The notes under the pieces were generated by a model that was not told where the DNA came from, searched no databases, and saw nothing but the letters and a program-made list of their open reading frames with translations. A stretch of DNA of 64,000 nt from Candidatus Gastranaerophilales bacterium (GTDB lineage Bacteria; Cyanobacteriota; Vampirovibrionia; Gastranaerophilales; Gastranaerophilaceae): contig JAFQOV010000025.1 of NCBI GenBank assembly GCA_017402995.1, forward strand, positions 62,001 through 126,000. The letters run 5' to 3'. Positions 25,192-28,288 of the stretch are shown here, one piece after another. Each line of letters opens with the position of its first letter. Position 1 is the stretch's first letter. The translations under genes and the position numbers were made by a program.

Positions 25192-25312
25192 AAATAATTG
25201 GACACTCCCCTTGTATTACGATTTTTAGTTGGATATTTTGCTTAGATATTTTCAAAATGTGGAAAATATGTTAATATTATATAGCAAAAAAATAAAGGAA
25301 AAAATAAAAAAT

Positions 25313-25873
25313 ATGCAAGAAAACGAAAGACAACAACCTTCAATCGTAGTTCCAATGGACGATTTGGACAAAGTAGAACAAAAAGATGGAGATGATGTTG
25401 ACGCATTAGCGCAAGAATTAGCAACAATTCGCCAAAGTGCAAAAAGAATAGCTATCATTGGTTCAAGAAACCTTACAATTACACACCAACAAATTATTGA
25501 AACTTTAACTACAAGCCTTGTTATGCAAGGAAATACAATAATCACTTCAGGTGGTTCTTCTGGTACAAATGCCGCTGCAATCAGAGGGGCATTGAAAGCT
25601 AATCCTGAAAAATTAAAAATTATTCTTCCACAAACAATTGGTCAACAACCATCAGACGTTCAAGACCAACTTATCGGCGTTCCAAACATTGTTGAACACC
25701 CAGACAGAGCAATGATGACATTGGCTGATGCAAGTAGAATTTGTAACAGAGAAATCATATCAGAATGTCAACAATTGATTTGTTTCTTGTCGCATTCTTC
25801 AAATACATTACATAAAGCAGTTGAATTTGCTGAAGAATCACATAAAGTTGTTACAGTATTTTATTTAGATTAA
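25313..25873 (+). CDS. Cyanobacterial-type DprA-like Rossmann protein
   Basis: A 186-aa protein with a stand-alone Rossmann-like fold related to DprA/lysine decarboxylase-like proteins: AIIGSRNLTITHQQIIE, NTIITSGGSSGTNAAAIRGA, KIILPQTIGQQPSDVQDQL, ASRICNREIISECQQLICF and a closing VVTVFYLD. This is the pattern of a short protein annotated DNA recombination-mediator protein A in Cyanobacteria, as I remember it. It lacks the extra domains of true DprA, which is also in this window. The frame extends to a TTG at 25229, but ATG 25313 has AAAGGA 13 nt upstream and drops a poorly conserved extension. Function is not established. Confidence 0.75.
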   Translation: MQENERQQPSIVVPMDDLDKVEQKDGDDVDALAQELATIRQSAKRIAIIGSRNLTITHQQIIETLTTSLVMQGNTIITSGGSSGTNAAAIRGALKANPEKLKIILPQTIGQQPSDVQDQLIGVPNIVEHPDRAMMTLADASRICNREIISECQQLICFLSHSSNTLHKAVEFAEESHKVVTVFYLD

Positions 25874-25887
25874 TAAGTTTTTAAGTA

Positions 25888-25927
25888 AAAAAAGACTCCT
25901 GTGTTGATAGGGGTCTTTTTTTTATTA
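25888..25927 (+). terminator. Rho-independent terminator of the DprA-like gene
   Basis: AAGACTCC and GGGGTCTT pair (one T-G) around a 9-nt loop, followed by an unbroken T run. It ends 13 bp before the inverted-repeat element. Confidence 0.9.
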
Positions 25928-25996
25928 TTTTTTTGGATAGAATATATTGTTTTATTCAATTTCAAAAAGTTCATTTTTTAAAAAGCTAAAGCTTTT

Positions 25997-26053
25997 GTAC
26001 TCTTTTCTTTCTTTTTCTCTCAAACGCCGAAATGAAAAGAAAGAAAAGAGTAC
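25997..26053. repeat. Left hairpin of the inverted-repeat element
   Basis: The arms GTACTCTTTTCTTTCTTTT and AAAAGAAAGAAAAGAGTAC are perfect complements (19 bp) around a 19-nt loop containing ACGCCGAAAT. Confidence 0.85.
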
Positions 26054-26388
26054 GAGAAAAGAAAGAAACCTCGGGCTTGGTTAAATTGTTTTGCTTTTTT
26101 GCAACGCTTCAAAACTTAACTCCTGAATAAAACAGTCGAGGTTTTGAACACCTTATACAATAATTTCTATACAATGAAACATAAAAAGCTTAAAACGTTC
26201 AAATTCCTCTCCGGTTTTATTTTCATACGTCATTAAGTTTCTCGCTTGTGGAAAAGCACACGCACTTAATGAAACGGCAATGCGTAAGGGTTGTCTGAGC
26301 GCTAGCGAGTTCCCGTAAGCATTGACGTTGAATTTAGTGCGTCACTAGAAACCCACATGAAACCGAGCCGTGTTTTCTTTTCTTTTTG

Positions 26389-26441
26389 CTTCGTTTTTCT
26401 TTTCTTTGATCGGCGATTGAAAAAAGAAAAGAAAAACGAAG
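26389..26441. repeat. Right hairpin of the inverted-repeat element
   Basis: The arms CTTCGTTTTTCTTTTCTTT and AAAGAAAAGAAAAACGAAG are perfect complements (19 bp) around a 15-nt loop with GATCGGCGATTG. The loop core is the reverse complement of the left hairpin's loop core. Confidence 0.85.
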
Positions 26442-26545
26442 AAGTCTGAAGGACTTGACGAAAGAAAAAGAAAATGAACAAGAACTTTAGTTCTTTATAA
26501 AAAATCAAAATTGAATAAAACAATATATTTTATTCAAAAATCAAA

Positions 26546-28288
26546 TTAATCTATTTCTTCCTCAAAAAGCTTATCTGCAAGCTTTTGTTCCGTTTTTCCA
26601 TTTAATCTTTTTGAAATTTTTCTCAATTTTTGAGCAATAACTTCCATCTCATCTGTCCAGATAAAATTATCCAAAACATATTTCTCGCCTGCTTCAAAGT
26701 CGCCATTCATTTGAATTTTTACAATTTCAGACAACATTTCATATGCTGTATCTACCATTTTTTCAATATGAACTGTTAAAAATCCGTCTTTTGAAATTTC
26801 AATTGCGCCTTTTTGAAGGAAATAATAATTTTGCATTACAGAGCGAACCCTATGCGCCTGAGACAATGTTGGCTTAGATTTCAACATGTTATCTGTCGCA
26901 TATGTTACAATGATTTTTTCTTTTTCTGCTTGTGAATATAAACCAGCTTCAGATAGTTTATCTAGCATTGAAAGAGCAACCATATCAGCCTTATTTTCTT
27001 CAATAATTGATTTATATTTTCCTAAAGCTTCACAACCCTCTTTCGGACCAAGGGAATGTCCGTTTTCATGCCCAATTGTAAAAGGATGGTCCATTTTATC
27101 GTCGTAATATTTATGCAAAGATTTTTCTAAAATATTATCTAATCTTTCTTGGATTTTTTGTTTGGCGTCGTCTGATGTCACAAAGCGAATTTGTCTATGA
27201 TATACGTTTCTTCTGCCACCGCCAATAGTTAAAGATAATTTATCATTATTTGGTAGATTTTCTGCTAATGTGATACCTGCACGAAAAGCACCAACATCTC
27301 CTGCAACTTCAATTAAATCAACATCTACCATTGTTTGAGATATTTCATTTTCATCACTGATAACTTGCTCATATTCGCTATTATATGGCATATTCATAGC
27401 CATTAAAGGAAGGAAATCTTTAACTTTTAAAATGTAATCTGTTCCTTCTTTGTTAACTATCCCAACGCGCGCGCCAAGATAATCTTTTGAAATGACATCA
27501 ATATTATTTTTGTCTAATAATGCCTTTAATTCAGCATTTTCCAAAACAGTTTCTGTCATTTCATCTGTATAATTTTCTCTTGTGATTGTAAATTCAAGTG
27601 GAGTATCTTGCAAAGTTGCCCATTTTTTATCAGCATATGCGTCTTTGATTGGGTCAGCCTCTAAAAATGCGTCTGCTTGAAGTCTTAAATATTCGTTGAA
27701 ATCAACGTTTGTAGATAAACAACTCGCTTTTAAAAGATATTTTGCAACTTGTTTAAAATCTTCTTTAAATTTATCAACAAAATCAATCGCAACAAGCTCG
27801 CTGCCTTTTCTTTCAACAACACTTCTTTGATTTAAGATTTTTTTAACTTCTAATGCCTTATTTTCTTTTAACATTTTAATTAAAATATCGTGAAATTCAG
27901 ATATTTCAAGGTCATCTGGATAGAGACCTCTGCCTTTTTTTAATTCTAAACCGCGAGCCAAAACAACAAGATTTGATTCGCAATCAAGCGCAAAAATGCC
28001 CTTTTGAGCGTCAAACAATATTTTTGTTAATTGCGCTTTTTTATTTCCTTTTTTGATTTCATCTTCTAGGTATTTTTTAAAACCAAGATTATGATGAGAA
28101 TCAAGTTGCATATTAATTTTTTCAATTATTCTTGCCGCTTTAACCAAATACGAAAGAGCGCCTTTGTCGCCGTCTTTAAGTGCTGCAAATTCGCTTGAAT
28201 CCACATCAAGCATTTTTTTAGTCACAAGATAGTCCTTGTGCGTTCTTTTTTCTAGTTCTTCTTGCGTCAAGTTTAATTCAAAATTCAT
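26546..28288 (-). CDS. M49-like (dipeptidyl-peptidase III fold) metallopeptidase
   Basis: A 580-aa cytosolic protein. Residues 407-411 are HENGH and residues 430-435 are EENKAD. These match the two zinc motifs of family M49 (HExxGH and EExRAE) in order and spacing, with the first motif shortened by one residue to HExGH. Pentapeptide HExxH-type motifs occur in some bacterial DPP III and in M49-like domains of plant Nudix proteins, as I recall. Expected activity is release of dipeptides from short peptides, but a hydrolase of another kind is possible. There is no signal peptide. It is monocistronic: a terminator lies upstream and the inverted-repeat element downstream. Confidence 0.75.
   Translation of the reverse strand: MNFELNLTQEELEKRTHKDYLVTKKMLDVDSSEFAALKDGDKGALSYLVKAARIIEKINMQLDSHHNLGFKKYLEDEIKKGNKKAQLTKILFDAQKGIFALDCESNLVVLARGLELKKGRGLYPDDLEISEFHDILIKMLKENKALEVKKILNQRSVVERKGSELVAIDFVDKFKEDFKQVAKYLLKASCLSTNVDFNEYLRLQADAFLEADPIKDAYADKKWATLQDTPLEFTITRENYTDEMTETVLENAELKALLDKNNIDVISKDYLGARVGIVNKEGTDYILKVKDFLPLMAMNMPYNSEYEQVISDENEISQTMVDVDLIEVAGDVGAFRAGITLAENLPNNDKLSLTIGGGRRNVYHRQIRFVTSDDAKQKIQERLDNILEKSLHKYYDDKMDHPFTIGHENGHSLGPKEGCEALGKYKSIIEENKADMVALSMLDKLSEAGLYSQAEKEKIIVTYATDNMLKSKPTLSQAHRVRSVMQNYYFLQKGAIEISKDGFLTVHIEKMVDTAYEMLSEIVKIQMNGDFEAGEKYVLDNFIWTDEMEVIAQKLRKISKRLNGKTEQKLADKLFEEEID

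Follow-up and report, generated by a model that had tools for sequence, protein, structure and literature searches.

A mobile repeat of Candidatus Gastranaerophilales with paired modules predicted to end in triple-helix pseudoknots

Results

The element and its surroundings

The genome analysed here, an assembly of 1.7 Mb in 26 contigs, belongs to a Candidatus Gastranaerophilales bacterium whose relatives are Candidatus Gastranaerophilales of the animal gut. Within the window, the stretch of 64 kb of this genome that was analysed, a dprA-like gene (25229-25873, + strand) and an orphan gene for a 580-aa protein (26546-28288, - strand) converge on an intergenic element, which is immediately preceded by a terminator belonging to the dprA-like gene. 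An earlier note on this DNA had described the element as devoid of open reading frames, and indeed the sole internal frame listed (73 aa, TTG start, low-complexity F/K) is not credible; neither a promoter-like nor a terminator-like site was found inside. The protein of 580 residues has no Pfam match but is conserved across the Gastranaerophilales at about 65-83% identity with differing neighbours in relatives, and a HEXXH-like stretch in its sequence (GHENGHSLGP) suggests that it may be a peptidase.

The terminal inverted repeats are exact over 22 bp (25941-25962, + strand, and 26508-26529, - strand) and extend to 42 nt at 86% identity (25921-25962 and 26508-26549). The left end, AATATATTGTTTTATTCAA, is matched exactly at other copies. 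Since a palindrome (26511-26537) makes up the right end, the true limits of the element probably lie a few bases further out, at about 25931 and 26539. Two hairpins with perfect 19-bp stems (25997-26015/26035-26053 and 26389-26407/26423-26441) enclose loops of 15 and 19 nt that contain the reverse-complementary motifs CGCCG and CGGCG. The terminal repeats and the two stems are the three longest inverted repeats in the window among those with arms no more than 700 bp apart, and when the element was shuffled 500 times as dinucleotide blocks the longest inverted repeat did not exceed 14; the terminal repeats and hairpins are real and beyond chance. The earlier description of the ends and hairpins is confirmed at the coordinates it gave, and the middle, as it had missed, is in addition a structured domain. 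The polypurine/polypyrimidine arms that had been called unusual turn out to be the key feature, although it had gone unnoticed that these tracts form mirror repeats, as had the dozens of copies and the palindromic nature of the right end.

The element comprises two modules that face outward, each consisting of a head domain and, on its 3' side, a unit with the arms. On the - strand, the left head (CCGGAGAGG ... CTCGACTG, 26069-26215), delimited by comparing upstream regions across copies, leads into the left unit (25997-26076; match to the covariance model R2 at 25997-26079, 71.7 bits), in which a short segment S1 (GCC) is followed by a putative third strand Y2, the pyrimidine arm Y, a loop with GGC and the purine arm R. 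Here Y2 (26054-26068) mirrors the Y arm (mirror repeat AAAGAAAGAAAAGAG / GAGAAAAGAAAGAAA; mirror score 15 versus a direct score of 12). A small outer palindrome, AAAAAGCTAAAGCTTTTG, adjoins this unit at 25979-25996 by direct reading, and the same position holds AAGGGCGAAAGCCCTT, AAAGACTAAAGTCTTT and similar sequences in other copies. On the + strand, a structured right head with covarying pairs (26257-26350) precedes the right unit (26364-26441; R2, 53.2 bits), composed of S1 (GCCG, 26367-26370), a perfect 34-nt mirror repeat of Y2 and Y (26374-26407), a loop with CGGC (26411-26414) that can pair with S1, and the R arm (26423-26441). Further outward, direct reading reveals the small palindromes AAGTCTGAAGGACTT (26441-26455) and AAGAACTTTAGTTCTT (26480-26495). 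Between them, GAAAGAAAAAGAAAATGAAC and the bases that follow (26459-26479, + strand) are nearly identical to part of a unit found at two other loci (L007/L032), namely its R arm with the outer flank, marking this stretch as the R-arm remnant of another unit type and as a sign of mosaic copies.

Copy number, mobility and distribution

BLAST searches within the same genome revealed that the repeat forms a large family, in which some copies are full and others partial, and R2 recovered about 30 type IV units in its 1.7 Mb (E<=1e-6). The copies are mosaic in that arms, outer palindromes and middle modules are swapped among them, with other repeats nested in some; one such second repeat (TGTCATGCTGAACTTGTTTCAGCATCT ... 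AGACCCTGAAA...TTCAGGGTGACA) lies inside copies L016, L031 and L036. Since 29 of the 52 contig ends fall in a copy or within 250 bp of one (e.g. C2:1, C9:9930, C20:67899 and C26:23710), the repeat is a main cause of breaks and accounts for much of the poor assembly of this gut genome, and the real copy number is probably higher than that counted. BLAST of the element against phages, and of the right head against plasmids or phages, gave no match.

The earlier note had proposed a miniature transposable element, a decayed transposon or a structural element at convergent gene ends, and had held that a single copy without empty-site alleles and with conserved synteny in all relatives would speak against mobility. 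The dprA-like and 580-aa genes are not adjacent in the 80 relatives fetched and hence offer no clean empty site, so other copies were used. At a junction of divergent genes, pflA and a surface-protein gene, the intergenic distance is 789 nt with the element in the genome analysed here versus 123-165 nt without it in 16 relatives. Similarly, the divergent metK and aspS genes are separated by 644 nt with the element in one other genome (G005), whereas 202, 215, 222 and 257 nt separate them without it among the source genome, G009, G018 and G042. The element is thus mobile, multi-copy and either present or absent at conserved gene junctions, as expected of a miniature transposable element. Intergenic flanks are too diverged between species for these comparisons to fix insertion ends or target-site duplications. 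For a decayed transposon, neither a coding remnant nor, in searches for Y1_Tnp, DDE_Tnp_1 and RVT_1, a transposase with the same ends came to light.

The metK-aspS junction is an insertion hotspot at which other species carry differing small inserted genes (L296, L303, L308, L310, L311, L315). Upstream of metK, on the metK strand, the motif GCTGGGTCGGAATTAAAAACCTTACCAGC is kept in all species of the genus seen (L297, L306 and other metK loci); without a match in Rfam, it may represent an unrecognised metK leader.

Units matching R2 occur in 19 of 28 genomes of the genus and in 76 of 192 genomes (28 of 45 genera) of the order, and in a sample of 386 genomes from the phylum all matches fell within the order Gastranaerophilales, with the qualification that R2 was built from the window genus and that distant forms may escape it. 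When two units cluster, they face outward (-+ order) in 22 of 25 cases, 151-486 nt apart. Many units are single in the stretches fetched, and for some of these the contig stops before any partner could be seen. In one genome (G203) a fluoride riboswitch match (Rfam RF01734, L277:606-681, - strand) lies beside a copy. Literature searches turned up no description of repeats of this kind in Gastranaerophilales or Melainabacteria.

A putative third strand that mirrors the pyrimidine arm

On the type IV strand a unit reads S1, Y2, Y arm (preceded by GTTC), loop and R arm (followed by GAAC). As a mirror of the Y arm, Y2 has the same direction as R and sets T against A and C against G, which by its sequence is the register of a pyrimidine-motif, parallel Hoogsteen third strand; both units of the window show it, on opposite strands. 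All three strands of an intrastrand triplex of class II/IV are thus present in register on one strand. Mirror scores are higher than direct scores in 107 of 120 distinct units, which represent 82 distinct arms and many genera, and lower in two. Moreover, CC steps in the third strand number 2 versus 12.4 +/- 3.1 expected, an avoidance to be anticipated if neighbouring C+.G-C triples are costly. Single-strand energy models give triplexes no score.

A loop stem that covaries

The 3-6 bases directly 5' of Y2 (S1) pair with the hairpin loop, and the pairing is retained while its sequence changes: GCCG/CGGC, GGCG/CGCC (L050, L240), GCCC/GGGC (L046, L047), AGCC/GGCT (L218), TGTG/CACA (L213) and TTGCG/CGCAA (L100). 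The S1-loop duplex has an energy of -6.28 versus -4.30 with shuffled loops (z -11.5). For loops other than GGCG/GGCA, the native pairing also surpasses that obtained when loops are swapped between units (z -6.3), while GGCG-type loops give no signal in this comparison since they share one common sequence. The covariation that an H-type pseudoknot predicts is therefore observed, though not in every unit: some units in other genera have loops of 4-5 nt and no convincing S1 stem. At the variable fourth S1 pair, reading the type IV strand yields G.T 12 times and A.C twice (sign test p 0.006, over 14 cells that are not fully independent), which favours the type IV strand as the one that folds. From this covariation we infer a three-stranded pseudoknot. 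Triple-helix pseudoknots of the telomerase type have this topology, in which a pyrimidine loop 1 that follows S1 crosses the major groove of what is here the Y:R stem.

Head domains

An alignment of nine right heads (A4) supports 28 consensus pairs, 16 of which show compensatory changes on both sides. In the window genus this head always sits directly upstream of a type IV unit, with which it shares its strand. No credible Rfam match was obtained with it, none reaching the gathering score of Rfam 15, and weak matches (microRNAs, Phe leader) are dismissed as chance matches to polypurine hairpins. Predicted RNA folds are more stable than expected for the right head with its unit (z -5.7) and for the left head with its unit (25979-26215, - strand; z -4.6). 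The left head is common to other species of the genus, with weak covariation. An excess of G.U in the head structures drawn by RNAalifold was excluded as evidence, because the program accepts G.U and not A.C. In other genera different sequences take the head position, several of them common to multiple copies and some with covarying stems. Further conserved heads upstream of units in other genera were seen at L200, L202 and L250-L255, at L205, L257 and L267, and at L208 and L261-L263.

Search for a mobilising enzyme

Searches with profiles for Y1_Tnp, DDE_Tnp_1 and RVT_1 revealed no transposase with the element's ends. DDE_Tnp_1 was rejected as a driver, being present in two of 27 genomes of the genus and unrelated to copy number. 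Genomes of the genus with RVT_1 have more units (mean 8.7 versus 2.5; Mann-Whitney p 0.04), but the presence of RVT_1 and that of units are not significantly associated (Fisher p 0.22). Judged by gene order and size, these reverse transcriptases look to be of mixed types, some resembling those of diversity-generating retroelements, and no unit lies nearby; a reverse transcriptase was thus rejected as the driver and the association treated as confounded. Two loci, L349 and L355, combine a reverse transcriptase with a small upstream gene, in L349 also with a possible target protein, and are candidate diversity-generating retroelements.

Discussion

With modest confidence, we read the block as a mobile, MITE-like repeat that is non-autonomous and whose two outward-facing modules end in triple-helix pseudoknots, most likely formed in RNA. 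In this scenario the terminal inverted repeats enclose two modules, each with its unit on the 3' side of the head domain, and the unit would fold as an H-type pseudoknot that a long triple helix of the pyrimidine motif closes. Lodged in the major groove of the hairpin that Y and R form, Y2 would be parallel to the purine arm, while S1, a stem of 3-6 bp, would tie the hairpin loop to the base immediately ahead of Y2. The strand expected to fold is the one that reads S1-Y2-Y-loop-R, most likely as part of an RNA whose transcription begins in the middle of the element and proceeds outward; the triple helix may protect or mark the 3' end of this RNA. The repeat would be copied by an enzyme supplied elsewhere, in trans. 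An RNA is suggested by the direction of the wobble pairs, by the one-sided placement of heads and by the fact that pyrimidine-motif triplexes form in RNA, while purine-motif ones do not (PMC4666352).

The main rival is that the same mobile repeat folds as single-stranded DNA, on the lagging strand or upon extrusion by supercoiling, serving as a recognition structure for transposition or as a replication-blocking one. We regard this as possible though unlikely. In its layout the motif equals the intrastrand-triplex DNA repeats of bacteria (BoxC/PIT/TM_ECO), which likewise occur as inverted pairs (PMC4666352), the paired units described here are mostly inverted too, and insertion occurs regardless of gene orientation. 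However, the preference for G.T over A.C at the variable S1 pair and the right-hand head that is always 5' on the same strand both fit RNA better, even if they are tolerable in DNA.

It could also be argued that the mirror symmetry is a by-product of polypyrimidine/polypurine composition and that the units are ordinary hairpins beside low-complexity tracts, since the arms are T/C-rich and often partly self-symmetric, and direct-repeat scores are high as well (mean 10.8). Yet swapping arms between units lowers the mean mirror score from 13.3 to 8.9, asymmetric arms (e.g. tttttcttctctttt / TTTTCTCTTCTTTTT) fit the mirror far better than the direct arrangement (15 versus 9), a mirror copy cannot be produced by duplication or template switching, and S1 covaries too. 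This explanation is therefore largely refuted and quite improbable.

Even less probable is a repeat of the REPIN/BIME type driven by a REP-associated tyrosine transposase (RAYT), with the small outer palindromes acting as REPs. The idea draws on the single Y1_Tnp/RAYT-like gene of the source genome (G000:C1:122985; L143, G000:C1:121485-124811), which is preceded by the palindrome GGTAGACTTTAGTCTACC and AAAGAACTAAAGTTTTT, a small palindrome ahead of it resembling those outside the units. Nevertheless, no unit lies near this gene and Y1_Tnp occurs in only this one of 15 genomes of the genus, being absent from all 14 others searched, several of which (G006 and G011 included) carry 11-16 units; we therefore rejected a RAYT as the driver.

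Finally, selection of a fixed element at convergent gene ends, for a structural or terminator role, as the position of the window copy behind a dprA-like gene with its own terminator might suggest, is hardly tenable and is refuted as a general role, since the four flanking-gene orientations are about equally frequent (++ 20, -+ 19, +- 18, -- 17), so that units are neither 3'-UTR elements nor tied to convergent ends, the genes on either side of the pflA and metK-aspS insertions are divergent, and the element contains no terminator-like site.

A broader and distinctly more tentative proposal than the MITE-like repeat with RNA pseudoknots is that the Gastranaerophilales harbour an order-wide class of mobile non-coding RNAs with exchangeable structured heads and a common 3' tail that forms a long triple-helix pseudoknot with all its strands encoded. 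Triple-helix motifs were recognised in bacterial repeats decades ago but have been assigned no function. Evolutionary evidence for selection on a three-stranded fold comes from the more than 100 diverged natural units that retain a mirror-register third strand, in most cases along with a covarying loop stem. The family also supplies many ready-made test molecules and indicates several structured domains that are absent from Rfam.

How do these repeats compare with known systems? Like MITEs, they are short, gene-free and dispersed, with terminal inverted repeats and with polymorphic insertions for which relatives have empty sites (at copies other than that of the window), but they are longer and internally modular. 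No partner transposase emerged from the searches for Y1_Tnp, DDE_Tnp_1 and RVT_1, nor a target-site duplication from flanks so diverged between species. With REPIN/BIME repeats they share palindromes, inverted pairs, mosaicism and intergenic location, although no RAYT consistently accompanies them and their units are much larger and contain a third strand. H-type pseudoknots with major-groove U.A-U triple helices are found in telomerase RNA and in the SAM-II and preQ1-II riboswitches. The order of parts is that predicted for the units (S1, a loop 1 that follows the major groove of stem 2 in parallel orientation, then S1' and stem 2'), but here 10-16 consecutive triples are predicted, and in a mobile bacterial repeat.

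ENE triple-helix stability elements occur in transposon RNAs, such as that of Arabidopsis Evade (PMC12501189). By analogy, the repeats described here may be mobile elements whose RNA likewise contains a triple helix, possibly with a protective role; unlike ENEs, which clamp a poly(A) tail, they encode all three strands themselves. If the proposed class exists, it would be a bacterial counterpart of triple helices of the ENE and telomerase type that has spread by transposition.

The closest parallel is offered by BoxC/PIT/TM_ECO, which read Y-loop-R-spacer-R2 (class II) or, on the other strand, Y2-Y-loop-R (class IV), and which are also intergenic, multi-copy, often in inverted pairs and absent from some close relatives (PMC4666352). 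For the E. coli triplex repeat, folding in vivo is at best minor or transient (PMC4666352). The third strand of our repeats is T/A-rich and 12-16 nt long, whereas it is G/C-rich and 9 nt long there, and structured heads and terminal inverted repeats set them further apart. Moreover, the ITxF search rule sets loops of 1-6 nt, whereas those described here are mostly 6-20 nt (15 and 19 nt in the window, 4-6 nt in some units of other genera) and pair with a covarying S1; the word pseudoknot does not occur in PMC4666352. The layout is thus known from BoxC/PIT/TM_ECO, with the long T-rich third strand, the pseudoknot loop, the heads and the terminal repeats as differences.
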